Virus record (IMG/VR): IMGVR_UViG_3300036770_000541
Span: 1 to 39,395 of that record
Strand: one strand, 5' to 3'
Origin: a virus
DNA length: 39,395 bases
This document shows positions 1,896 to 39,395 of the stretch, piece after piece. The notes beneath the pieces are model-generated. The model made no database searches and was not told where the DNA came from. It worked only from the letters and a program-made list of their open reading frames with translations. The position numbers and the translations under genes are program-made. How positions within the stretch are numbered: the stretch's first letter is position 1; every line of letters starts with the position of its first letter.

Positions 1896-2840
1896 ATGGC
1901 AACACCAGCTTGTAGTGACGAAGAGTTTGTAAAACTATTTAGAGAACTGGGTTCTCCCCAGGCGATTGCTGAAACACTAGGCATTTCTGTCCGCAACGTC
2001 TTTGCGAGAAGAAATCGTCTTACACAGAAACACGGGATAGAGCTTCTTTCGTTCTCCAAACATTTGCGAATCACAAACGTAACGCATGAGCAGAAGATTT
2101 ATACCGAGATTAAAGACGGAATTGTTGTGGTCTTTTCGGATGCTCACTACTGGCCTGGGCCTCCAACGGTCGCTCACCAGGCTTTGCTGGCGGTCGTAAG
2201 CAACCTAAAACCCGCTATCGTAATTGCCAACGGGGACGTTTTTGACGGGGCCAGAGTCTCAAGACACGATCCTATCTACAAGCACGAAACACCCTCAGCC
2301 AAGGAAGAGGTAGAGGCTTGTGTAGAACGCATGACCGAGATAGAGGACGCTAGTAAGAACAGTACGCTTCTGTGGAACGTAGGCAACCACGATCAGAGGC
2401 TGTGGCGGTACATTCGTGTAAACGCCCCAGAGGCTTCTGGTATGCCGCACACAGACTTGTTTGACTACTTTGCCAGGTGGAAGCAGACCTACGCTGTAGA
2501 CATAAACGGCAACACGCTTATAAAACACAGATGGCACAACGGTATCCACGCCACCTACAATAATGCTTTGCGAGCTATGGGAGCGCACGTTGTCACAGGC
2601 CACCTACATCGTTTACAGATTACTGCGGTTGCTGGCTACGGACACCAAAGATTTTACGGAGTAGACACAGGTACGCTAGCAGATGTAGACGGGCGGCAGT
2701 TTGCCTACCTAGAACACAACCCAGTCATGTGGGCTTCTGGGTTTGCGGTGCTTACTTACCGCAACGGGGTACTGCTGCCCCCAGAGCTTGTGGAAGTGGT
2801 GGACGGTGAGGCATTTTTCAGGTCTTGCAAAATAGCGTGA
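1896..2840 (+). CDS. HTH-metallophosphoesterase fusion (calcineurin-like)
   Basis: A 314-aa two-part protein. Residues 1-50 look like a DNA-binding helix-turn-helix (QAIAETLGISVRNVFARRNRL). From residue 78 on it carries the metallophosphoesterase signature: D82-x-H84, GD at 113-114, GNHD at 163-166, a later histidine pair in KHRWHNGIH, and GHLHR at 235-239. The family hydrolyses phosphodiesters with two metal ions and includes Mre11/SbcD nucleases, phosphatases and cyclic-nucleotide enzymes. The HTH suggests action on DNA. It starts directly after the HExxH gene and is paired with it again in copy 2 (35525-36466). The substrate cannot be assigned. Confidence 0.85.
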   Translation: MATPACSDEEFVKLFRELGSPQAIAETLGISVRNVFARRNRLTQKHGIELLSFSKHLRITNVTHEQKIYTEIKDGIVVVFSDAHYWPGPPTVAHQALLAVVSNLKPAIVIANGDVFDGARVSRHDPIYKHETPSAKEEVEACVERMTEIEDASKNSTLLWNVGNHDQRLWRYIRVNAPEASGMPHTDLFDYFARWKQTYAVDINGNTLIKHRWHNGIHATYNNALRAMGAHVVTGHLHRLQITAVAGYGHQRFYGVDTGTLADVDGRQFAYLEHNPVMWASGFAVLTYRNGVLLPPELVEVVDGEAFFRSCKIA

Positions 2841-2864
2841 ACTTTTCCTGATTTGTGGTATCCT
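2837..2864 (+). promoter_or_regulatory. Extended -10 promoter overlapping a stop codon
   Basis: GTGAAC (2837-2842), 16-bp spacer, then TG-G-TATCCT with the hexamer at 2859-2864. The first element contains the TGA stop of the metallophosphoesterase. The same arrangement, with shared TGAACTTTT and TGTGGTATC blocks, occurs at 36763-36790 in copy 2 even though the preceding gene there is unrelated. That conservation is the main evidence. Transcription would start near 2871 and enter the structured non-coding region. Confidence 0.6.
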
Positions 2865-2865
2865 A

Positions 2866-3285
2866 TAAGGGCTTAGGAAAAAGACTAGGCTGCGTGTGGA
2901 AGCGCAAACTGCAAATCACATTTAAGAACCTCTACGCATGGGTTTCGGTTTTTTAGGCGATTTTTGTGATTTCAGCCTCTTCCACCGCAACCTGGAACCC
3001 AGTCGTAGGGGTTTTTCTATTTCTAGGCTCGTCCGCGACACGATAAGTTGGTGGCCTGAATCGGCTGAATCGCAATAAAGACACCTAGCGTTTACACCCG
3101 CGTTTAGGTCTCAGCCTGTCAGAGAGGGACTGAGGTAGTCTACAGGGCCAGGGGTGACTATGACCAACCTGTAGATGAATGAATCTCTGCGTTCTGCGGT
3201 ATCTAGTCTGTAGCTTGTAGTCTTAGTTGCAGGTGGGATGGGAAGATAGCATGGGCTATCACCCTTGGGGGAGTTATGTCTAAAA
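2866..3285 (+). ncRNA. Structured non-coding region, candidate ncRNA or origin
   Basis: No ORF of note lies in this stretch. It holds a series of strong stems in order. (a) A nested stem: GTGGAAG 2896-2902 with CTTCCAC 2979-2985 (flanked by GCG/CGC), and inside it AAATCACA 2913-2920 with TGTGATTT 2965-2972. (b) ACCTA-GCG 3083-3090 with CGC 3099-3101 and TAGGT 3105-3109. (c) TCTACAGG 3139-3146 with CCTGTAGA 3168-3175. (d) GATAGC-ATGG-GCTATC 3245-3260. A near-direct repeat of TGAATCG lies at 3054-3072. No T-run follows the last hairpin. It does not match an RNA family I know. It could be a long leader, a free RNA or the copy-1 replication origin. Confidence 0.45.
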
Positions 3286-3338
3286 GATACAACACTAGTG
3301 AAAACCCTGATACAACACGATAAAAAAAGTGATACTGT
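3286..3338 (+). promoter_or_regulatory. Repeated operator-like boxes and promoter for the Mom-like gene
   Basis: GATACAACAC occurs at 3286-3295 and 3309-3318, and a third partial box GATAC begins at 3331. The spacings of 23 and 22 nt equal about two helical turns. The last box overlaps a TG-A-TACTGT extended -10 (hexamer 3333-3338) placed 6 nt before the ATG at 3345, and no Shine-Dalgarno is visible, so a leaderless transcript is possible. Spaced repeats like this usually bind a regulator; the protein is unknown. Confidence 0.45.
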
Positions 3339-3344
3339 TAATAC

Positions 3345-3956
3345 ATGACTGTGTTACCAATAAAACCAGAAGAGGCGTACCCTTGGATTCTGCAAAAGCA
3401 CTATGCCAAGCGGGTTCCGCAGATAAGCTATGCGTTTGGTCTTTATGAAGACAAGCAGCTAAAAGGTGTTGTGACCTACGGTATGCCAGCTAGTCCGTTT
3501 ATTTGTATGCATCTTTGCGGGCCTGAATACCGAGATCATGTCATAGAGTTAAACAGACTTTGTTTACAAGACAACAAAAAAAATGAGGCCAGCTTTCTTG
3601 TGGCTAACAGCCTAAAACTCCTACCCAAACCTAAAATTGTGGTTTCTTACGCAGACATGGGTATAGGTCACATTGGGTATGTTTATCAGGCTTGTAATTT
3701 TTTATTTACTGGTTTGTCAGCAGACAGAGTAGACAAAATTAGTTCTGACAATAAACACTCTCGTCACGCTAAAGATGCGACCCAAAAAATTCGTAGAAGC
3801 AGAAAATATAGGTATGTTTACTTTGTTGGATCAAAGCAAGACAAAAAGAAATTTGTTAACCTTTTGCGGTACGAAGTTTTGCCGTACCCAAAGGGAGATA
3901 ACAAAAAATACGATGCTGGTGGACAAGTTATGACCCAACCATTGTTATTTGCATAG
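3345..3956 (+). CDS. Mom-like DNA adenine modification protein
   Basis: A 203-aa protein resembling the phage family annotated as Mom-type adenine modification proteins. Conserved-looking segments are PWILQKHYAKRVPQISYAFGL, VVTYG, ELNRLCL, ASFLVANSLKLLP, VVSYADMGIGHIGYVYQACNF and a C-terminal KYRYVYFVGSK. In phage Mu, Mom has a GNAT-like fold and converts adenine to a carbamoylmethyl form that resists restriction. This copy lacks the 25-30 residue insertion I recall after VDK in some relatives, so it is slightly short. It lies in the replication cassette of copy 1 only. The family call comes from motif memory; activity is not shown. Confidence 0.7.
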   Translation: MTVLPIKPEEAYPWILQKHYAKRVPQISYAFGLYEDKQLKGVVTYGMPASPFICMHLCGPEYRDHVIELNRLCLQDNKKNEASFLVANSLKLLPKPKIVVSYADMGIGHIGYVYQACNFLFTGLSADRVDKISSDNKHSRHAKDATQKIRRSRKYRYVYFVGSKQDKKKFVNLLRYEVLPYPKGDNKKYDAGGQVMTQPLLFA

Positions 3957-3965
3957 GAGAGAGAA

Positions 3966-4358
3966 ATGCAAGACTTTGAGATGTTCTGGAAGGAGTACCC
4001 AAAAAAGGTAGCAAAGGGCGATGCGCGGAAAGCCTGGATACAGACAGAAGCGATAAGGCCCGACCTAGAAACAGTCCTAAAAGCAGTTAAGACCGCAAAG
4101 AAGCAAGAGGACTGGCGTAAGGACTCTGGTAAGTTTGTACCCTACCCTGCCACATGGTTGCGGGCAGAGAGGTGGGAGGACGAGTATGAGCTTGACATAG
4201 AGGACGCTGTAGAAGTCAACGGTCAAGTTATGAACTGGTGGGAGTCCGCAACAGGGATAGAAAAAAAGGGTGCGGAGGTCGGGTTAACCCCAGAGCAGTT
4301 TGCGTCCTGGCCTGAGTTTAAGGCTACCGTCCTGCGGCAACTTATGAGGGCGGCCTAA
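3966..4358 (+). CDS. Replication-protein C-terminal-type domain, stand-alone
   Basis: A 130-aa protein with the pattern FEMFWKEYPKKVAKGDARKAW, then KFVPYPATWLRAERWEDE (about residues 55-72). This module is usually found at the C-terminus of phage replication initiators and DnaT/DnaD-like proteins. Here it stands alone with no N-terminal winged-helix part. It has a good AGGAG site 8 nt before the ATG and ends one base before the next gene. It occupies the same slot as the DUF1376 and P-like genes of copy 2, which supports a replication role. Confidence 0.65.
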   Translation: MQDFEMFWKEYPKKVAKGDARKAWIQTEAIRPDLETVLKAVKTAKKQEDWRKDSGKFVPYPATWLRAERWEDEYELDIEDAVEVNGQVMNWWESATGIEKKGAEVGLTPEQFASWPEFKATVLRQLMRAA

Positions 4359-4718
4359 ATGAAGCGTGATACGGAAGTAGAAGCAGTCATCACTAGAAGT
4401 ATGTCTGCGGCTGAGATTATGGACCTCACAGGCCATAACAAGGGCAGTCTCTACGCAATACTGGATAGGCTTATAAGTGAAAACAAGATCAAGAAAACGG
4501 GCCTCAGATACGCCCCAACAGGATATTCTGACCAGCCGATTGTTAACGGAAGAGACGAGTTCTTCTGTGCCGACCCCTTCAATATGTCTGGACTGCGAAA
4601 CAATCGGAATCTTCAATCTCAACTGCGGAAAATGCAGACTAAGACTCATCAGACAGGAATCATGCAAGGTCTTGCGGTTGCAAGTGAAAGAAACAGCAGA
4701 AAGGTACGGTGGGCTTGA
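4359..4718 (+). CDS. Winged-helix/HTH protein (copy 1)
   Basis: A 119-aa protein. Residues 1-55 form a helix-turn-helix pattern (MSAAEIMDLTGHNKGSLYAILDRLISENKIKKTGLRYAP). In this part every nucleotide difference from the copy at 37945-38304 is synonymous, so this frame is clearly coding. The C-terminal half is basic and less typical, and another open frame overlaps it. Its TGA overlaps the ATG of the DUF3310 gene (TGATG), indicating coupled translation. Probably a DNA-binding regulator of early genes; target unknown. Confidence 0.8.
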   Translation: MKRDTEVEAVITRSMSAAEIMDLTGHNKGSLYAILDRLISENKIKKTGLRYAPTGYSDQPIVNGRDEFFCADPFNMSGLRNNRNLQSQLRKMQTKTHQTGIMQGLAVASERNSRKVRWA

Positions 4719-4972: not shown

Positions 4973-5486
4973 CGCAATGAAGCAAGCATTGGAAGTCATT
5001 GAGGCTGCAATTGAGGCTGGTGACTGGAAGGTGGATGGGGCCTGTGATCCAGACATGGCAATACATTCACTACGCCAAGCCATCGCAGAGGCAGAGAAGC
5101 AAGAGCCTGCCTTTTATGTGATACCAGCAACAGACAGATTCGGAGAGGGATATGAGCAAACCTACTGGGAAGACCCCGCTGGTTTTCCTGTTTATACCAG
5201 ACCTGTTTACGCCAGCGACATATCGCAAAAACCTGTCGATGAAACTGCAAAAGATCGACATAAGACTGATTGCAAAAAAGATTTTGACTTACTTTTTGAG
5301 GCAAATAGCGCAGATATAGAGGCGTTGCAAGACGCTCAATTTACCCTTGAAGCGATTAAAAGCGCAGATCCCGGAACGCATGACGAAATAATTGATGCGT
5401 CATTGCATTTAATAAAACTTGCATTAAGCAATTCTGTTTTTGGGCCAATAGAAAGAATTGCAGAAAGATATGGGGTTGAAATATGA
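4962..5486 (+). CDS. MKQAL-type accessory protein, long form
   Basis: A 174-aa protein starting MSISAMKQALEVIEAAIEAG, followed by SLRQAIAEAEKQEPAFYVI, a module I know from many environmental phage proteins of unknown function. The C-terminal half (from about residue 85) is acidic and helical (SADIEALQDAQFTLEAIKSA). A GGAG site precedes the ATG, which overlaps the previous stop. The copy at 38548-38871 lacks about 66 central residues, yet the rest from about 5250 onward is identical at DNA level. The next gene starts with the same MSISxMKQAL motif, so the two are N-terminal paralogues. Confidence 0.75.
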   Translation: MSISAMKQALEVIEAAIEAGDWKVDGACDPDMAIHSLRQAIAEAEKQEPAFYVIPATDRFGEGYEQTYWEDPAGFPVYTRPVYASDISQKPVDETAKDRHKTDCKKDFDLLFEANSADIEALQDAQFTLEAIKSADPGTHDEIIDASLHLIKLALSNSVFGPIERIAERYGVEI

Positions 5487-6049
5487 GCATTTCAATAATG
5501 AAGCAGGCATTAGATGTCTTGCGAGGAATGCACCCAGAACATGGCGGCAATGCTTTTACGAGGGCCGCTGACGAACTGCGGCGAGCAATTGATTTACAAG
5601 AGAAGCGACATATTTGCCCAGACTGGGACTTTATGGAAATTACGGTAAACGATGAAGAATTTAATGCCTGCTGTTGTTTCCCAAAAGAGCCAAGACCTAG
5701 TCTTTGGTTAGCAACCGCCCACGATGGGCGAGTGAAATATACAACCGATAGCGGTCGTGCATCAGATTGGAAAGAATCAGGCTCGTACAGGATGGTTCAA
5801 GACTATTACACTGAACCACTGCATGACTTTGGCAATGTTACGGATGATGCATTGATAGAAGAAGTCCGTAGTCGTGGCTTTACTATTCGTGATGCTCAGA
5901 TTTCACCAAAGCGTGAATGGGTTTGGCTGACGGACACGCAGATCGACGAAATCATGCGTCCGCTTACGCAGAATCAACCCTACTCGTGGCGGGTATTTGC
6001 TCGGGCCATCGAAGCCAAACTAAAGGAAAAGAATGTACCGCAACCCTAA
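5483..6049 (+). CDS. MKQAL-type accessory protein, full length
   Basis: A 188-aa protein starting MSISIMKQALDVLRGMHPEH with the arginine-rich helix AADELRRAIDLQEKRHICPDW. It has a mid-region ACCCFPKEPRP and a C-terminal section DTQIDEIMRPLTQN...WRVFARAIEAKLKEKN, which resembles C-termini of other phage hypothetical proteins. Its start overlaps the previous stop (ATGA). The copy at 38868-39395 is nearly identical for over 400 nt, then carries a 28-codon in-frame insertion after QISPK before rejoining at REWV. Function unknown. Confidence 0.75.
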   Translation: MSISIMKQALDVLRGMHPEHGGNAFTRAADELRRAIDLQEKRHICPDWDFMEITVNDEEFNACCCFPKEPRPSLWLATAHDGRVKYTTDSGRASDWKESGSYRMVQDYYTEPLHDFGNVTDDALIEEVRSRGFTIRDAQISPKREWVWLTDTQIDEIMRPLTQNQPYSWRVFARAIEAKLKEKNVPQP

Positions 6050-33200: not shown

Positions 33201-33397
33201 AGCATTTCTCCTACTCTGTCATAGAATTCCTTGCTAACCAATTCCAGCAAGGCGTGTTCTTCTTCCGTGTGGTCTCCGTGTTTAATCTTGTTTCGGAGCC
33301 AGTACGCAAAGTCGTCCGCAGCACCCCGCAATCTTGGTGCTTCCATGTACATCGCGGCTTCTGCTGGACTGTCACATTTTAACTTTATTTCAATCAT
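33197..33397 (-). CDS. Small phage protein upstream of exonuclease
   Basis: A 66-aa protein (MIEIKLKCDSPAEAAMYMEA, GAADDFAYWLRN, then KHGDHTEEEHALLELVSKEFYDRV). The homologous fragment 1-110 at the other end shows the same start. Overlaps the exonuclease gene and the membrane protein gene by a few nt. Function unknown; gene order in the operon is conserved between copies. Confidence 0.8.
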   Translation of the reverse strand: MIEIKLKCDSPAEAAMYMEAPRLRGAADDFAYWLRNKIKHGDHTEEEHALLELVSKEFYDRVGEML

Positions 33398-33611
33398 TTT
33401 GTTTCATGCCCCATATTTGGATGCAAGTAGATTCAAGGCGAGCATCTATCGGGTTGAGCTTCAGAATGTCTTGTGACCCTGCCTTGTAAGCCTCAATGAT
33501 TTCTGCGGTCTTAAAGCCACTTTCTCGTTTAGCCTCCTCCCGAATGTCCACAATCCTGTTGTAGCCCGCGGCAAGCAGGATGCCCATGACAAAACCCATA
33601 AGCCAGTTCAT
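33390..33611 (-). CDS. Small membrane-anchored phage protein (copy 2)
   Basis: A 73-aa homologue of 103-309. N-terminal membrane segment WLMGFVMGILLAAGYNRIV, then a different middle and the conserved LNPIDARLESTCIQIWGMKQ tail. The anchor region and middle have diverged while the tail has not, which points to the tail as the functional part. Confidence 0.75.
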   Translation of the reverse strand: MNWLMGFVMGILLAAGYNRIVDIREEAKRESGFKTAEIIEAYKAGSQDILKLNPIDARLESTCIQIWGMKQND

Positions 33612-33648
33612 AAGAACATCAACCCAAGGAAAAGAATCATAAGAACGG

Positions 33649-33894
33649 CTACTGTTCCAAGTCCGTCAAGCGTTGCAGCTTTTGCTTCCTCGCGTCTAAG
33701 GCTTTGGCATACTCCATGTCTAAAGCAGACATCGCCCACTCCTGTAGATGAAACGCCTCTTTTTGGATTTCGATACATCGCGTTATTACCTCCTCAAGTT
33801 CTTTTGTTTCTAAAAGGGATGCTGCTGTTAGGTCTCGTAAAGCCGCACATAGCGCGGTGATGCGTACTACATTGGCTCCGTGGTTGTTTTGCAT
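33649..33894 (-). CDS. Helical protein next to annealing protein (copy 2)
   Basis: An 81-aa homologue of 347-589; most differences fall near the N-terminus and the last ten residues. It overlaps the annealing-protein gene by 28 nt. No recognised motif. The conserved core ELEEVITRCIEIQKEAFHLQ is identical in both copies. Confidence 0.8.
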   Translation of the reverse strand: MQNNHGANVVRITALCAALRDLTAASLLETKELEEVITRCIEIQKEAFHLQEWAMSALDMEYAKALDARKQKLQRLTDLEQ

Positions 33895-34379
33895 ACCTGT
33901 TCCTTTCGCTTTGTAAAAGTTTCTTGCATTACTTTCCTATCTGCTTCACTCATGGCCCCCCAGACGACTTTAAGATCTTCTAATGAACCACAAGCGTTTA
34001 CTGCTGCGGTCATCTTCTCTACACGGGGATTGGACTGGCTCGATATAGCTGCAATCACTTCGTCCGCAGAAGCAATCTGCATCTCCTGAGAACCGTAGTC
34101 TAGGAAGCCTAGTGCGCGGCCTACAGCACTCGTCTCCGCAATCTCAACATAGGATGCCTGGTGCATCTTAGAGGCGTTACGGGTCTCAAAGGCGTGGCCT
34201 GTAGCCTGGTGGACACCCGCAGAGTCACAGATGTCACAGCGCATAACTACATGGTCTTCATCTAACCTGATGACCTCTGTGTGTATCTGCCAGTCTGGGT
34301 GTTCACCACGAAACTGATGTATCCGATAGGCTACGGTCGAATACTCTTTGCCGTGAATGTTTACTTTGCCGTTAGTCAT
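33867..34379 (-). CDS. Single-strand annealing protein (copy 2)
   Basis: A 170-aa homologue of 565-1080. It retains GKEYSTVAYRIHQFR, AETSAVGRALGFLDYG and QIASADEVIAAI; the region between residues 40 and 85 is diverged, and the C-terminal VWGAMSEADRKVMQETFTKR is invariant. In this copy the whole operon with the exonuclease is visible, confirming the exonuclease-annealing pair. Confidence 0.75.
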   Translation of the reverse strand: MTNGKVNIHGKEYSTVAYRIHQFRGEHPDWQIHTEVIRLDEDHVVMRCDICDSAGVHQATGHAFETRNASKMHQASYVEIAETSAVGRALGFLDYGSQEMQIASADEVIAAISSQSNPRVEKMTAAVNACGSLEDLKVVWGAMSEADRKVMQETFTKRKEQVCKTTTEPM

Positions 34380-34542
34380 CTGATTCTCCTAGTTGAAATG
34401 TGAGTGGTTCTTTGCTAAACATCTCTACCCTTAATTCGCCATCTTTATGCTTGATGACGAGCGTGGTGTAGTGAGTTTGAGTGCTGTCTTTCTTATGTTG
34501 AATTAGGGATAACCCCTCTGCGTAATGTACGGTTAAGTCCAT
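34372..34542 (-). CDS. Small conserved protein upstream of annealing protein (copy 2)
   Basis: A 56-aa homologue of 1073-1243 (MDLTVHYAEGLSLIQHKKDS). Nucleotide differences are mainly synonymous. It overlaps the annealing-protein start by 8 nt. Confidence 0.8.
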   Translation of the reverse strand: MDLTVHYAEGLSLIQHKKDSTQTHYTTLVIKHKDGELRVEMFSKEPLTFQLGESDD

Positions 34543-34704
34543 TTAGAAAGCCTCCATGCTTTTAAAATAGAATATTTCAGCGGCAAGTCGCTCGCCCTGT
34601 AGAACATATAAAGGCGAAAACAAACCAGCATCCTCTTCAGCCTCCTGCTGCCTAAGCAGGTCTTCTTGGTGAGCTTGCCCAGCGGCATCGTCATAGTCCT
34701 CCAT
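34543..34704 (-). CDS. Small acidic protein of leftward operon (copy 2)
   Basis: A 53-aa homologue of 1247-1402 (MEDYDDAAGQAHQEDLLRQQ). It directly abuts the next gene. One Asp is added and the C-terminal EIFYFKSMEAF differs slightly. GGAGG lies 7-11 nt upstream of the ATG. Confidence 0.8.
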   Translation of the reverse strand: MEDYDDAAGQAHQEDLLRQQEAEEDAGLFSPLYVLQGERLAAEIFYFKSMEAF

Positions 34705-35030: not shown

Positions 35031-35090
35031 TTGCATCTCTCCTTTTTTGTTAACCACAAGCACATCTTCTGCGTTTGTGCGCGAAATTTA

Positions 35091-35183
35091 TATTAGGAAA
35101 AACCCTTAGTTGCTTAAATGCAACAGTTTAACAATCATGCTTAAGTCTTTGTTTTGTAAACATATCGTGATAAGGTAACACTT
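35091..35183. promoter_or_regulatory. Divergent control region (copy 2)
   Basis: Counterpart of 1461-1553: same length, five differences. Hairpin GTTGC-TTAAAT-GCAAC here has a perfect stem, and the TGTTT-TGT-AAACA inverted repeat (35150-35162) is unchanged. AAGG precedes the ATG at 35184. Confidence 0.65.
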
Positions 35184-35525
35184 ATGAAACTGGTGACAAG
35201 ATCTACTTGCATCGCAGTTTACGAGCTGCTTGTCCAGTTGCCCCCTATAAAAGCGTGGAGACTCCCACCCAGTCAAGAAATAATTTTTGTAGTCAGGCAT
35301 CTCCAAGATGTCTATGGGTTGTACGAGCCAGACTCTCACAAAATAACCATTTCTTCAGCCAAACACGCCCATTTGGGTACTGTAGTACGAACAATGGCTC
35401 ACGAGATGATCCACCTCCACCTTTATCTCCGCAAAGATCCCGACTGGGATAAGCACACCAAGGTCTTCTTGGATGCTGCGGCAAAAGTTTCGCACACATT
35501 AGGGTTTGACCCGAAGGAGTTGTAA
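35184..35525 (+). CDS. SprT-like zinc metallopeptidase-type protein (copy 2)
   Basis: A 113-aa homologue of 1554-1895. HEMIH is retained at residues 73-77 and the flanking LHLYLRKDPDWDKH is nearly identical. The first 50 nt are identical to copy 1. Stop and next start overlap (TAATG). Confidence 0.7.
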   Translation: MKLVTRSTCIAVYELLVQLPPIKAWRLPPSQEIIFVVRHLQDVYGLYEPDSHKITISSAKHAHLGTVVRTMAHEMIHLHLYLRKDPDWDKHTKVFLDAAAKVSHTLGFDPKEL

Positions 35526-36466
35526 TGCCCGCACCAACTTGCACAGACGAAGAATTTATAGAGTTGTTCAAAAGGCTAGGTAGCCCGCAAAAGATTTGCG
35601 AGCACCTTGGGGTAACAGTCAGAAATGTCTATGACCGCAGGAACAGAATTGAAAAGCGGTACGGTATTAACCTGCTTTCTTTCAATGCCAAACAGGTCTC
35701 CATGACCAATGTTGTCCACGAGCAAAAGGCTTATGTGGAGCTTGCGAACGGAATTATTGTGGTTTTTAGCGATGCTCATTACTGGCCTGGGCCAGCTACC
35801 GTAGCCCACAGAGCACTATTAGAAGTCCTCAAAAACCTGCCTGTAGATGTTGTAGTTGCAAATGGCGATGTGTTTGATGGCGCAAGGGTCTCAAGGCATG
35901 ACGCACTCTACCGACACGAAACGCCCTCACCTAAAGAAGAGGTTGAGGCTTGCCAGCTAAGAATGGGAGAGATCGAGAACGCGGCTAAGAACGCAAAGAA
36001 GATCTGGACTTATGGCAATCACGACACGAGGTTATGGCGGTATATCAGGACAAATGCGCCAGAAGTCTCTGGTATGCCAAACACAGACCTCTATGACTTC
36101 TTTCCTGGCTGGCACACCTGTTATGCAATAGATGTCAACGGGAATACTGTAATTAAACACAGGTGGCACAACGGAATTCATAGCACCTATAACAATGCTT
36201 TGAAATCGGGCGTTAACTTCTGCACAGGCCACTTGCACAGGCTACAAGTAGCTGCGTGGGGAGACTACACGGGAAGGCGATACGGTGTAGACACAGGGAC
36301 GCTTGCGGAACCCGATGGGCCACAGTTTATGTACCTAGAACACAATCCAGTCCCGTGGGCTTCTGGGTTTGCGGTACTAACCTACCGAAATGGCGTACTC
36401 CTGCCCCCAGAGCTTTGCGAGGTGGTAAACGGAGAGGCATTTTTTAGGTCTTGCAAGATCGCCTAG
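35525..36466 (+). CDS. HTH-metallophosphoesterase fusion (copy 2)
   Basis: A 313-aa homologue of 1896-2840. HTH part (QKICEHLGVTVRNVYDRRNRI) and all metallophosphoesterase motifs are retained: SDAHYW, NGDVFDG, YGNHD, KHRWHNGIH and GHLHR. The HTH is more diverged than the catalytic core. In this copy the promoter that overlaps the stop codon in copy 1 is instead downstream of an extra small gene. Confidence 0.85.
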   Translation: MPAPTCTDEEFIELFKRLGSPQKICEHLGVTVRNVYDRRNRIEKRYGINLLSFNAKQVSMTNVVHEQKAYVELANGIIVVFSDAHYWPGPATVAHRALLEVLKNLPVDVVVANGDVFDGARVSRHDALYRHETPSPKEEVEACQLRMGEIENAAKNAKKIWTYGNHDTRLWRYIRTNAPEVSGMPNTDLYDFFPGWHTCYAIDVNGNTVIKHRWHNGIHSTYNNALKSGVNFCTGHLHRLQVAAWGDYTGRRYGVDTGTLAEPDGPQFMYLEHNPVPWASGFAVLTYRNGVLLPPELCEVVNGEAFFRSCKIA

Positions 36467-36489
36467 CAGGGAGAAAATTCCTCGTCTAT

Positions 36490-36520
36490 TTTTTCACGCT
36501 TTAGCGTTACCCGTGAAAAA
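36490..36520. other. AT-rich hairpin after metallophosphoesterase (copy 2)
   Basis: TTTTTCACG (36490-36498) and CGTGAAAAA (36512-36520) form a perfect 9-bp stem around a 13-nt loop. No T-run follows on either strand, so it is not a standard terminator. It may protect mRNA ends or be a protein-binding site. Confidence 0.45.
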
Positions 36521-36562
36521 GGGGGGATTAGTCCGTAGTAAAATCTCCTTTTGGAGGTGTAT

Positions 36563-36766
36563 ATGCATAAAGAAAACTACAGAGCTTTTTGTAAGTGGGC
36601 CAGAGAAAAAAAGTATCGGCTTACAACAGACGCAGAGAAATACTTTGTTAGCACCCATACCCAGTCTGCGTGGGATGCTTGGAACGGTGCGCTTATGTGT
36701 AAACACGCAGATAAATGGAATGATGAAGCAAAGCGTTTAAGCACGATGCTTAAGCAAATTTGTTGA
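36563..36766 (+). CDS. Small protein before replication promoter (copy 2 only)
   Basis: A 67-aa protein (MHKENYRAFCKWAREKKYRLTTDAEKYFVSTHTQSAWDAWNGALMC). GGAGG (36553-36557) lies 5 nt before the ATG and is buried in a CTCC-TTTT-GGAG hairpin (36545-36556), hinting at translational control. The SAWDAWNGALMC segment resembles small phage proteins of unknown function. Its stop lies inside the promoter at 36763. Confidence 0.65.
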   Translation: MHKENYRAFCKWAREKKYRLTTDAEKYFVSTHTQSAWDAWNGALMCKHADKWNDEAKRLSTMLKQIC

Positions 36767-36790
36767 ACTTTTTTCTGTCTGTGGTATCTT
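36763..36790 (+). promoter_or_regulatory. Extended -10 promoter overlapping a stop codon (copy 2)
   Basis: TTGAAC (36763-36768), 16-bp spacer, TG-G-TATCTT (hexamer 36785-36790). It includes the TGA stop of the 67-aa gene. It corresponds to the promoter at 2837-2864; blocks TGAACTTTT and TGTGGTATC are shared. Confidence 0.65.
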
Positions 36791-36796
36791 AGTATC

Positions 36797-36914
36797 TGTG
36801 CCGTGAGAAGCACAAAGTGGAGGCAGTAGCCAGTTCCTTTCAGATCGGCCCGCTGCCAGTTTTATACGCAATGTAGGCCTCCCGCTGGATTCTCACCCCG
36901 TGCGGGCCGACCTC
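36797..36914 (+). promoter_or_regulatory. Structured 5' leader of DUF1376 gene
   Basis: TGTGC/GCACA forms a hairpin at the predicted 5' end (36797-36801 with 36810-36814). TCGGCCCGC (36845-36853) pairs perfectly with GCGGGCCGA (36902-36910). Competing pairings exist: GGAGGC (36819-36824) with GCCTCC (36877-36882), which crosses the long stem, and GGCAG (36822-36826) with CTGCC (36853-36857). The ribosome-binding site lies just after the long stem, so a regulated switch or pseudoknot is possible. Confidence 0.45.
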
Positions 36915-36927
36915 AAGGGAATTGGTT

Positions 36928-37650
36928 ATGTACTACTACACCTTCAACATTGGCGATTACGCCAGTCACACCCGAAATCTTGGACTGCTTGAAGATCTAG
37001 CCTACCGCAGGTTACTAGACGAATACTATCTTCACGAACGACCGTTCAACGCCTGTTCAACGACCGTTGCACGCCAGATAGGAATGGCAGAACATAAAGA
37101 CGCGGTTGAGTTTGTTTTGCAGACTTTTTTTGTCTTGCAAGACTGCGGGTGGACAAACAAGCGGGCAGAAAAAGAAATCGCGCATTTTCGATCTAAGTCT
37201 GAGTCGGCTTCTAGGGCTGGCAAAGCGTCTGCTGAACGAAGGCTCAACGACCGTTCAACGACCGTTCAACCAACCAATAACCATAAACCAATAACCAATA
37301 ACCATAAACCAATAAAAAAACTACTTGCGCCTGAAGGCGTGTCTTTAGAGGTATGGGACTCATTTCTTCAGCAAAGGCAAAAGACGCGGGCAGTAGTGAC
37401 CGAGACGGTTATAAAGACAATCCAGAAGGAAGCTGACCTTGCGGGCTGGTCTTTAGAGAACGCTCTTTCCGAGATTGTGGCTCGTGGCTGGAGAGGGTTT
37501 AAGGCTGAGTGGGTGAAAGACAAGCCGCAGGATAAACTGTTAACATTTGCGGAAAGAGACGAGCTTGCCAAACGAAAGAAATGGGAAGAGATGACAGGGA
37601 GAAAGTGGCCTGAACCTGGGCAGCCTGTAGAAAGGTTGATGATCCTATGA
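36928..37650 (+). CDS. DUF1376 replication protein (copy 2 only)
   Basis: A 240-aa protein from ATG 36928 with AAGGGA upstream. DUF1376 core MYYYTFNIGDYASHTRNLGLLEDLAYRRLLDEYYLHERPF (residues 1-40), a linker with repeated asparagine/proline units (PTNNHKPITNNHKPIKK, about 115-131), and a C-terminal helical domain (EVWDSFLQQRQKTRAVVTETVIKTIQKEADLAGWSLENALSEIVARGWRGFKAEWV) typical of these replication proteins. DUF1376 proteins serve as initiator-type proteins in phages. The coding DNA carries iteron-like repeats, a likely origin. Confidence 0.8.
   Translation: MYYYTFNIGDYASHTRNLGLLEDLAYRRLLDEYYLHERPFNACSTTVARQIGMAEHKDAVEFVLQTFFVLQDCGWTNKRAEKEIAHFRSKSESASRAGKASAERRLNDRSTTVQPTNNHKPITNNHKPIKKLLAPEGVSLEVWDSFLQQRQKTRAVVTETVIKTIQKEADLAGWSLENALSEIVARGWRGFKAEWVKDKPQDKLLTFAERDELAKRKKWEEMTGRKWPEPGQPVERLMIL
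37037..37315 (+). other. Candidate replication origin inside DUF1376 gene
   Basis: Repeats of AACGACCGTT occur at 37037, 37059, 37245 and 37256. Two adjacent 21-bp repeats start at 37274 and 37295 (CCAATAACCATAAA followed by CCAATAA), then poly-A. Iterons next to an AT-rich segment inside an initiator gene are the layout of the lambda origin in gene O. Origin function is inferred. Confidence 0.55.
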
Positions 37651-37955
37651 ACCTATCCGCAATAGATGCTCTGTGGAACAAGATGCTTGTGGTCTACGGT
37701 CACGAGTGGACTCGCAAGTTTGACGGTATGCCTCTGGATGAAGTAAAGGGTGCGTGGGCAGATGAGTTGCGCGGCTATTCTGTAGAGCAGATCAAATACG
37801 GCCTGAGTATGCTAGGCGAGAGGCCACCCAACCTGATCCAGTTCAAAGACCTGTGTAAGAAGGCTCCACAGTATTTTGACTCACCACAATTAACTTATAG
37901 ACCAACGCCAAGCGAGGAGAAGCTGGCTAAATTTAGGAGGGCTTATGAAGCGTGA
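37647..37955 (+). CDS. P-like helicase-loader candidate (copy 2 only)
   Basis: A 102-aa protein: IDALWNKMLVVYGHEWTRKFDGMPLDEVKGAWADELRGYSVEQIKYGLSMLGERPPNLIQFKDLCKKAP. This resembles the conserved part of lambda P and similar phage replication proteins that recruit the host DnaB helicase. It overlaps the DUF1376 gene by 4 nt and the winged-helix gene by 11 nt. It is short compared with lambda P, so partial function is possible. Confidence 0.65.
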   Translation: MNLSAIDALWNKMLVVYGHEWTRKFDGMPLDEVKGAWADELRGYSVEQIKYGLSMLGERPPNLIQFKDLCKKAPQYFDSPQLTYRPTPSEEKLAKFRRAYEA

Positions 37956-38304
37956 TACAGAAGTAGAAGCAGTCATCACTAGAAGTATGTCTGCTGCGGA
38001 AATAATGGATCTCACAGGCCATAACAAGGGAAGTCTCTACGCAATACTGGATAGGCTTATAAGTGAAAACAAGATCAAGAAAACGGGCCTCAGATACGCC
38101 CCAACAGGATATTCTGACCAGCCCATTGTTAACGGAAGAGACGAGTTCTTCTGTGCCGATCCCTTCAATATGTCTGGACTGCGAAACAATCGGAATCTTC
38201 AATCTCAATTGCGAAAAATGCAGACTAAGAATACTCGTTACGGAACCATGCAAGGTTTTGCGGTTGCAAGTGAAAGAAACAGTAGAAAGGTACGGTGGGC
38301 TTGA
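37945..38304 (+). CDS. Winged-helix/HTH protein (copy 2)
   Basis: A 119-aa homologue of 4359-4718. The HTH part is identical in protein sequence to copy 1, with only synonymous changes; five of six residues differ in one block (about 91-96). The stop overlaps the DUF3310 start as in copy 1. Confidence 0.8.
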   Translation: MKRDTEVEAVITRSMSAAEIMDLTGHNKGSLYAILDRLISENKIKKTGLRYAPTGYSDQPIVNGRDEFFCADPFNMSGLRNNRNLQSQLRKMQTKNTRYGTMQGFAVASERNSRKVRWA

Positions 38305-38380
38305 TGGAGACTGGAAAACCAACAATTGTGGCTGTGAAAGAGTCTGCCAACGCAGGGCAAATCGGGGGCAGTCACTATAA
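38063..38380 (+). CDS. Possible overprinted cysteine-rich protein (copy 2)
   Basis: Second copy of the out-of-frame ORF at 4477-4794. All eight cysteines and CKVLRLQVKET are kept. In the variable block it reads LRILVTEPC versus LRLIRQESC. See the copy-1 entry for start options and doubts. Confidence 0.4.
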   Translation: MKTRSRKRASDTPQQDILTSPLLTEETSSSVPIPSICLDCETIGIFNLNCEKCRLRILVTEPCKVLRLQVKETVERYGGLDGDWKTNNCGCERVCQRRANRGQSL

Positions 38381-38558
38381 GAAGTTGACCATCCAGCCCT
38401 GGGACTATATTCTTGCTAACAGTATCGGCTACTGCGAGGGTTCCGCAATAAAGTATCTAAGCAGGTGGCGGGACAAAGGCGGTATACAAGATTTATATAA
38501 AGCAAAGCACTTTATAGACAAGCTGATAGAGCATGAGGAGAGTAAAAATGAGCGTTAG
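38304..38558 (+). CDS. DUF3310 family protein (copy 2)
   Basis: An 84-aa homologue of 4718-4972; the IGGSHYKKLTIQPWDYILAN core is identical, with two or three changes elsewhere (K to R in SRWRDKGG, Y to H near the C-terminus, and the last residue). ATG 38304 overlaps the previous stop. Confidence 0.85.
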   Translation: METGKPTIVAVKESANAGQIGGSHYKKLTIQPWDYILANSIGYCEGSAIKYLSRWRDKGGIQDLYKAKHFIDKLIEHEESKNER

Positions 38559-38871
38559 CGCAATGAAGCAAGCATTGGAGGCGTTGGATGCTTACGCCAG
38601 CGACATAAGCCAAGAACGTGTCGATGAAACGGCAAAAGATCGACATAAGACTGATTGCAAAAAAGATTTTGACTTACTTTTTGAGGCAAATAGCGCAGAT
38701 ATAGAGGCGTTGCAAGACGCTCAATTTACCCTTGAAGCGATTAAAAGCGCAGATCCCGGAACGCATGACGAAATAATTGATGCGTCATTGCATTTAATAA
38801 AACTTGCATTAAGCAATTCTGTTTTTGGGCCAATAGAAAGAATTGCAGAAAGATATGGGGTTGAAATATGA
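38548..38871 (+). CDS. MKQAL-type accessory protein, short form
   Basis: A 107-aa protein starting MSVSAMKQALEALDAYASD. Compared with copy 1 (4962-5486) it lacks about 66 internal residues, with the junction near the ASDIS tract, but keeps the frame. From about 38636 on it is identical to copy 1 at DNA level. GGAG precedes the ATG, which overlaps the DUF3310 stop. Confidence 0.75.
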   Translation: MSVSAMKQALEALDAYASDISQERVDETAKDRHKTDCKKDFDLLFEANSADIEALQDAQFTLEAIKSADPGTHDEIIDASLHLIKLALSNSVFGPIERIAERYGVEI

Positions 38872-39395
38872 GCATTTCAATAATGAAGCAGGCATTAGAT
38901 GTCTTGCGAGGAATGCACCCAGAACATGGCGGCAATGCTTTTACGAGGGCCGCTGACGAACTGCGGCGAGCAATTGATTTACAAGAGAAGCGACATATTT
39001 GCCCAGACTGGGACTTTATGGAAATTACGGTAAACGATGAAGAATTTAATGCCTGCTGTTGTTTCCCAAAAGAGCCAAGACCTAGTCTTTGGTTAGCAAC
39101 CGCCCACGATGGGCGAGTGAAATATACAACCGATAGCGGTCGTGCATCAGATTGGAAAGAATCAGGCTCGTACAGGATGGTTCAAGACTATTACACTGAA
39201 CCACCGCATGACTTTGGCAATGTTACGGATGATGCATTGATAGAAGAAGTCCGTAGTCGTGGCTTTACTATTCGTGATGCTCAGATTTCACCAAAGATTA
39301 AAGATGAGTATGAACTATGTTGCCAAAAGTATGACACCCGCACAGAGCCATGCACACCAAGAGGAAGGCATTTAGCAAAGCGTGAATGGGTTGGG
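38868..39395 (+). CDS. MKQAL-type accessory protein, cut by window end
   Basis: Homologue of 5483-6049. The first 143 residues differ from copy 1 at one nucleotide only (a Pro for a Leu). After QISPK a 28-residue insertion (IKDEYELCCQKYDTRTEPCT and on, with three cysteines) precedes REWV, then the window ends. The insertion is exactly 84 nt and flanked by CAAAG-like ends, so the reading frame is kept. Confidence 0.75.
   Translation, partial: MSISIMKQALDVLRGMHPEHGGNAFTRAADELRRAIDLQEKRHICPDWDFMEITVNDEEFNACCCFPKEPRPSLWLATAHDGRVKYTTDSGRASDWKESGSYRMVQDYYTEPPHDFGNVTDDALIEEVRSRGFTIRDAQISPKIKDEYELCCQKYDTRTEPCTPRGRHLAKREWVG

Follow-up and report, generated by a model that had tools for sequence, protein, structure and literature searches.

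Here we describe the replication slot of an environmental phage, as it stands near both ends of a 39,395-nucleotide viral sequence (IMG/VR virus record IMGVR_UViG_3300036770_000541, positions 1 to 39,395; the whole stretch is referred to below as the window), where the cassettes 2841-4358 (end 1, called copy 1 in a first-pass annotation of this DNA) and 36467-37944 (end 2, or copy 2) lie between the same two border genes. The interval is best explained as a module for early-operon control and replication start in a podovirus-like phage of about 33 kb, built from separately recombining parts between fixed borders, namely an initiator gene with exchangeable domains, a pseudoknotted leader (U), a structured RNA (X) for which other RNAs can stand in, and optional cargo such as a Mom-like DNA modification gene. 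To this explanation as a whole, including the roles proposed for the RNAs, we give a probability of roughly 0.55. Modular exchange of replication genes among phages has long been known, and the mosaic itself is a new, well-resolved case of that kind of exchange; the new part is X, together with the interchangeable RNAs behind a common pseudoknot leader, for which we infer a function.

A mosaic initiator between fixed borders

Comparison of the window with itself by blastn places the same locus in its first ~5.9 kb and its last ~6.1 kb, at 73-99% identity. Left of the cassettes, 1-1402 matches 33288-34704 (75.7%) and 1421-2836 matches 35051-36462 (72.7%); on the right, 4359-4993 matches 37945-38579 (93.1%) and 5204-5911 matches 38589-39296 (98.9%); the two cassettes have no mutual similarity. 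This bears out the first-pass annotation, which had seen fixed metallophosphoesterase and winged-helix borders around two non-homologous fillings, and related records keep both border genes, although 'winged-helix' is that annotation's own label for a right-border gene that matches no Pfam family. The gene content it gave for the fillings (Mom-like, 130-aa replication-type, DUF1376, P-like and 67-aa genes) also agrees with Pfam, PHROG and open reading frame (ORF) evidence, the P-like match being weak.

Viral contigs were searched with both border proteins, Mom, the 130-aa FWK-type protein of end 1 (FWK130) and the P-like protein of end 2, and the slot was typed with local profiles, giving a typed family of 35 rows from 34 records in which an initiator adjoins the border genes or a P-like protein lies close by. 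Four combinations of initiator and tail occur in it, which is at odds with the proposed two-way swap: DUF1376 with tail P and a P-like gene in 19 rows (five of them, L021-L025, nearly the same phage), FWK with tail P and a P-like gene in eight (L004, L009, L011, L012, L014, L015, L090 and L093), FWK with tail W but lacking a P-like gene in six, and DUF1376 joined to a third C-terminal domain, again without a P-like gene, in two (L026 and L029). The eight records in which an FWK domain is fused to a DUF1376-type tail beside a P-like gene are intermediates between the two supposed alternatives, a finding that the first-pass annotation had itself named as refuting its proposal. Tail P is accompanied by a P-like gene in 27 of 27 rows, and none of the eight rows without tail P has a P-like match.

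The breakpoints lie inside the initiator gene. When the DNA of end 2 is compared with L005 and L084, the leader and first codons are common up to 36960 (92-93%), the DUF1376 domain is different, and the sequences are common again from 37278; L006, which has a third N-domain, matches only from 37316 on, and the FWK hybrids match from 37540/37546, which is the start of tail P, in frame. The third C-domain is joined to N-domains a and b in L026 and L029. On these alignments the slot is a mosaic of three DUF1376 N-domains, a stand-alone FWK domain and three C-terminal tails, with intermediates.

Each DUF1376 N-domain has its own iterons inside the gene, CAACGACCGTT-like for type a, AACCCAGTCGG-like for type b and ACAAGCAATGC-like for type c, and such type-specific repeats were found inside the initiator gene in L005, L084, L006, L013 and L002, with a cluster spacing of about 176-202 b for N-domains a and b. 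The iterons previously noticed in the DUF1376 gene of end 2 are indeed present, as 11-bp CAACGACCGTT-like repeats; at up to two mismatches the type a repeat has 14 matches in the window against 7.0 expected, and six of the 14 lie in the two clusters. Iterons specific to an N-domain are the trace that would be expected from exchange of a putative origin-binding domain together with its sites. What survives of the proposed origin-plus-initiator replacement is hence a non-homologous exchange in which the DUF1376 N-domain moves with its own iterons, and what falls is the two-way swap of the whole cassette.

Like the O/P module of lambda, the DUF1376 cassette has iterons and AT-rich DNA within the gene of its initiator and exchanges N-domain and iterons together, and the tail lies beside a gene that is, on a weak match, P-like. 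It differs in that the N-domain is DUF1376, that an FWK protein without that domain can take its place, with or without a P-like gene, and that structured leader RNAs belong to the cassette. By analogy with lambda O and P, the DUF1376 initiator is predicted to recognise an origin within its own coding sequence and to recruit the helicase through its tail, via the P-like protein.

FWK proteins are short, with no DUF1376 domain and no comparable iterons. FWK130 itself matches replication-initiation/primosomal PHROGs (best E 2.8e-20) and aligns to the C-terminal part of longer initiators; sequence comparison gives no relative in the PDB, Pfam only chance matches and Foldseek nothing significant. 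Its AlphaFold model is fair (pLDDT 83.3, pTM 0.56), and the best VIA-align row, lambda P on DnaB (9oa1_Y; Z 4.5, rmsd 3.0, 66 aligned), lies within the range of common arrangements and is too weak to count. A lambda P-like fold of FWK130 would fit the absence of a P-like gene beside tail-W proteins, and FWK proteins may bring in the helicase by another contact.

A pseudoknotted leader and the RNAs behind it

The structured non-coding region that had been noted at end 1 is present and comprises two separate RNA structures, U and X. Both cassettes open with a promoter-like site, followed by U. In leader U a short hairpin comes first, and its loop is complementary to a stretch within the long hairpin that follows, forming a pseudoknot. 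At end 1 the long stem is followed by a T-run (about 3012-3016) and looks terminator-like; at end 2 the long stem (36827-36853/36902-36928) is predicted to sequester the Shine-Dalgarno sequence of the initiator, AAGGGA. The same holds across the cassettes: in those of the DUF1376 type the long stem contains the initiator's Shine-Dalgarno sequence, and in FWK ones a T-run comes after it, then the large RNA element. In 14 DUF1376-type leaders loop and partner covary (GUGAGAA/UUCUCAC, GUGGAAA/UUUCCAC); 88.7% of cells form pairs, where slid controls reach 39-50%, and the covariation of 0.286 compares with 0.165 when shuffled and is reached by none of 500 shuffles, although the number of further pair types is not above that of the shuffles. 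For the loop, an exactly complementary stretch of 6 nt or more is present in 69 of 114 X loci, compared with 66 of 570 mononucleotide-shuffled sequences; among the 45 X loci without one, some differ by a mismatch and some have another layout. The 50 nt immediately before X contain a T-run in 89 of 113 loci, a more distal 50 nt in 15 of 113. We propose that U would serve as an attenuator, whose target is transcription where the cassette is of the FWK type and translation where it is of the DUF1376 type.

The DNA around and including X (3030-3284) is 88-95% identical in L007, L012 and L027, where the DNA of the FWK gene is 66-83% identical. A sequence-only alignment of seven sequences gave the first signal of structure, with 23 of 61 pairs changed on both sides. 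Across 73 distinct sequences 90.3% of cells are paired, 54 of the 61 pairs have changed on both sides, and covariation stands at 0.620, compared with 0.169 after shuffling and no more than 0.089 after sliding, in an alignment that was fitted to the model and is thereby favoured; a second, overlapping set gives 0.736 against 0.204 shuffled.

The covariance model R1 found X in 10 of 61 sources, in two of 63 others (L008 and part of the L007 record) and in none of 69 Mom loci. A first sequence pattern for X had returned 11 loci, seven of them by chance; a pattern for its 3' end returned at least 120, and of the 117 new ones listed 112 match R1 at E < 0.001 (73 of 77 and 39 of 40). Among 37 whole records, R1 sees exactly one copy of X in 23 and none in 14. 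A second model, R2, run on 100 sources, adds L346, L072, L075, L058/L176 and L297, as well as a 96-nt partial match in L017. The idea of a conserved start codon ending X was dropped because the search pattern had forced an AUG and hits not selected for it (L346, L070 and L058) are without one.

Searches of Rfam 15 by cmscan gave no family for X in the window or in L191, L192, L118, L305, L240, L290, L285 and L346, and the Rfam model Betaproteobacteria-1 (RF02932) has no match in the window at its gathering score and, at E up to 1, none in 2700-4500. With blastn, the cassette region and X found nothing in a collection of named phages, and X nothing in plasmids. Two other variants of X retrieved one record, MW202484.1, whose own X finds only itself and whose annotation places a hypothetical protein over part of X. 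A strict 3'-end pattern gave no hit in the genomes of 84,980 bacterial and archaeal species, a search that required the exact end and would miss W1-like variants. In the literature we found nothing on X, U or Betaproteobacteria-1; the large lists of candidate structured RNAs were outside this comparison, so X may be listed there. Such lists have reportedly been published by Weinberg and colleagues in 2017 and, for viruses and phages, by Fremin and colleagues.

X is one of several RNAs or candidate RNAs in this slot. Of the 14 FWK rows in the typed family, 13 have X, Z, V or Betaproteobacteria-1 following U, and the 14th, L093, is an incomplete record; a run of R1 on 17 DUF1376-type records (L022-L025 not among them) gave no X, and blastn with X, Z, Y and V gives no match in any of 21 DUF1376-type records. 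Element Z, non-coding, lies behind U in five FWK hybrids (for example L011:1327-1545), where it is 98-100% identical in phages that are otherwise more diverged. Z and its homologues occur in 13 records, several near-identical and all with an FWK gene downstream, and a Z pattern returned 14 loci, four of which were judged by reading to be chance. Conservation and fold energy (z -3.3) are what suggests that Z is an RNA. Element V, also non-coding, precedes FWK genes in L017 (7099-7360) and L110 (2635-2822), with 78% identity over 198 columns, and the partial R2 match in L017 overlaps it. In L020 (5414-5535) Betaproteobacteria-1 itself, at 65 bits, is found behind U and before an FWK initiator, the same slot as that of X, though RF02932 does not match X.

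What X may do

Our best guess is that X is a cis-acting leader, by which transcripts escaping U would be extended or translated. A T-run within 120 nt behind X was seen in only four of 113 loci, because of which X seems to be part of a longer transcript; its scarcity fits a leader with no terminator directly after it. The antitermination RNA put of phage HK022 (PMC9378689) is likewise a structured nascent phage RNA of the early operon and acts on transcription, whereas X is about 255 nt long, lies behind the terminator-like U and would be a candidate for such activity.

A free-standing RNA acting in trans, be it a regulator, a decoy or a component of a ribonucleoprotein, that merely travels in the leader position would account for the single copy per genome (23 of the 23 X-bearing records among 37), for the unrelated genes next to X, for the non-homologous RNAs that occupy the same slot and for the lack of a conserved AUG. 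The rarity of a T-run behind X and the position of X behind U in most loci speak against such an RNA, which we consider unlikely, if still a serious competitor at perhaps one chance in four.

It is more doubtful that X, and with it Z, V and Betaproteobacteria-1, marks or primes the replication origin where the FWK initiator has no DNA-binding domain. The single copy of X, the shortness of FWK proteins, which align only to the C-terminal part of longer initiators, and the company that the large RNAs keep in the typed family, where they accompany FWK rather than the DUF1376 gene with its iterons, would all suit such a role; yet half of the X-bearing whole records have no FWK match, and in many phages X precedes capsid genes. 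Similarly improbable, in our estimate, is a broader scheme of two cassette logics, in which an initiator with DNA-binding domain and iterons is set against a stripped-down initiator relying on an interchangeable RNA (X, Z, V or Betaproteobacteria-1) behind a pseudoknot switch, the RNA giving the missing specificity, of origin or of timing, and being swapped as such between phages.

Several observations count against the account preferred here, that of a control and replication-start module with X as a leader in cis. The genomic context of X is wider than the initiator slot: an FWK match follows within 4 kb in 77 of 121 X loci (62 of the 92 that have 1.5 kb or more of downstream sequence and 15 of the 29 that have less), and 44 have no FWK profile match there; 24 X-bearing whole records divide into 12 with an FWK protein and 12 without a match; and in MW202484.1 (33113-33883), the single named genome in which X was found, the FWK gene is on the upstream side. 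Of 23 loci read by eye, mostly ones without an FWK match, 11 have X about 180 nt before the major capsid gene and others have it before early genes; two of the 23 (L230 and L314) have an FWK protein recognisable by eye that the profile had missed. As X lacks FWK in many loci and stands before capsid genes, it is not initiator-specific. The structure has soft spots too, with helix 3 at the closing end weakly paired (64-68%) and a fold energy of the window sequence alone that is unremarkable (z -0.02), and the unconserved AUG at the 3' end weakens a role in translation. On the protein side, the P-like assignment is weak, the 102-aa protein matching phrog_1524, a family of unassigned function, at E 1.2e-7 and the helicase loader phrog_109 only at E 6.5e-4; and because tail P and the P-like gene adjoin, linkage explains part of their pairing and may explain much of it.

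The capsid gene in those 11 loci (L305, L249, L265, L293, L261, L256, L282, L252, L244, L316 and L338) is of the MEP301 type; in five named phages of the same capsid type (MEP301, NC_023841, OQ414635, OX241449 and AP014888) R2 finds no X.

Mom as an optional passenger

The gene at 3345-3956 matches the Mom family PF25680 with E 4.6e-38 and 131.4 bits, above the curated cut-off of 27.1. Mom of phage Mu is an adenine-modifying enzyme; the window gene shares with it membership of the PF25680 profile, which makes a modification activity putative here, and differs in being an optional insert inside a replication cassette. The first-pass annotation had tied Mom to one of two alternatives and asked whether it always accompanies the FWK-type protein. 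Neither link is supported. The DNA of L007 matches the window over 2655-3339 (88%) and 3952-4362 (83%), with Mom missing in between, and L008 is of the same Mom-less type, so that the empty site occurs in two related phages despite the end 1 leader and an 88% identical 130-aa protein. Mom is present in only one of the 14 FWK rows of the typed family, and among 80 Mom loci kept of 120 found, an initiator match is seen in 22, 11 of them DUF1376/mid and 11 FWK, a total that is a minimum because the flanks vary. These comparisons indicate that Mom is an optional passenger, insertable behind X.

Other cargo was seen at the same place or behind the initiator. L015 has a queuine-transglycosylase-like gene (phrog_887) and a Vut_1 transporter gene at Mom's place, between Z and the initiator (1817-2945), a possible second DNA modification route in the same slot; to the 7-deazaguanine modification genes of phages, a queuine transglycosylase-like gene with a YhhQ-type transporter, the pair bears a family resemblance only. 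L006 carries a GIY-YIG gene and L013 a GNAT gene. A protein of variable length (MSWLFSQVLVEEYLGD..), with partial similarity to phage DNA methyltransferases, is often found behind the initiator (L007:7843-8766 and L003:7797-8459).

Two ends, probably one locus

The two ends most likely represent a single locus in two allelic forms, on a circularly permuted map of about 33 kb that the contig covers slightly more than once, the assembly having entered a second strain. Terminase, portal, scaffold, head protein, fibre and holin, the structural genes scanned, occur once each in the window. The metallophosphoesterase gene is single in 12 of 14 related records and absent from the other two, both partial. 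In six related records compared with the window, gene order is constant, start points differ and the locus occurs once each; one of the six (35,580 bases) has a border gene at both of its ends. The view of one genome with two copies is unsupported because the locus is single and the maps are permuted in these relatives.

That the window is instead a real molecule, either a terminally redundant heterozygous genome or a tandem array from mixed infection, strikes us as quite improbable: the ends are non-identical over about 6 kb and headful phages are known for heterozygous terminal redundancy, but the redundant ends of one concatemer are normally identical, the stepwise identities of 73-99% are as expected of an assembler crossing between strains, and no integrase was found. 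The first-pass proposal, in which two copies within one genome have exchanged whole origin and initiator cassettes and Mom belongs to one of these, has the fixed borders and two non-homologous fillings in its favour and is very hard to sustain in view of the single locus and permuted maps, the intermediates and breakpoints internal to the initiator, the empty Mom site and the 11:11 distribution of Mom.

Near the right end (38579-39395 against 4993-6049) the alleles are 98.9% identical, with a deletion of about 210 b and a short insertion near 39297. The phrog_11717 gene (565-1080 and 33867-34379) and the phosphoesterase gene each fall into two allele groups, which assort independently in the related genomes G003 and G005; this may be taken as a sign of frequent recombination.

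Features of the window

The features of both ends are collected in Table 1. The optional 67-aa ORF of end 2 is 98.6% identical in one related record, L005, and has no matching DNA in L002, L003, L013 and L084.

Table 1. Features at the two ends of the window, with the evidence for each
Feature	Position	Strand	Basis
Metallophosphoesterase, left border (end 1)	1896-2840	+	PF00149, phrog_221
Promoter-like GTGAAC-16-TATCCT, left cassette edge (end 1)	2837-2864	+	Consensus match only
Leader U (end 1), loop GTGGAAG (about 2896-2902) pairing with CTTCCAC (2979-2985)	2868-3020	+	Sequence
RNA X, structured, ~255 nt	3030-3284	+	Covariance model R1, 292.5 bits (window in model seed); covariation
Mom-like DNA modification gene, optional insert	3345-3956	+	PF25680
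Stand-alone FWK-type replication protein, 130 aa, tail W (NWWESATGIEKKG..)	3966-4358	+	phrog_270/9327/9474
Winged-helix-type gene, right border (end 1)	4359-4718	+	94% DNA identity with end 2
Metallophosphoesterase, left border (end 2)	35525-36466	+	Pfam and PHROG matches
Optional ORF, 67 aa, between border and promoter-like site (end 2)	36563-36766	+	ORF list
Promoter-like TTGAAC-16-TATCTT, same layout (end 2)	36763-36790	+	Consensus match only
Leader U (end 2), loop GTGAGAA pairing with TTCTCAC (36890-36896)	36793-36930	+	Sequence, fold z -3.9
DUF1376 initiator: N-domain type a, middle domain, tail P from about 37540	36928-37650	+	PF07120, E 5.1e-21
Iteron cluster 1, 11-bp repeats	37036-37068	+	Sequence repeats
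Iteron cluster 2, 11-bp repeats, then AT-rich AACCAATAACCATAAACC repeats to about 37320	37234-37266	+	Sequence repeats
P-like protein, 102 aa, putative helicase loader	37647-37955	+	phrog_1524, phrog_109
Winged-helix-type gene, right border (end 2)	37945-38304	+	Self-blastn, DNA comparison

Implications

To the known modular exchange of replication genes this locus adds resolved joints, between N-domain with iterons and the rest of the initiator, at the tail with its P-like gene, and at the leader with its RNA, which are predictive for hybrid initiators. X is a strongly covarying RNA, present once per genome in many records of environmental phages, for which Rfam 15 has no matching family. Through the slot that X and Betaproteobacteria-1 have in common, an orphan RNA gains a repeatable genetic context in which its function becomes directly testable.

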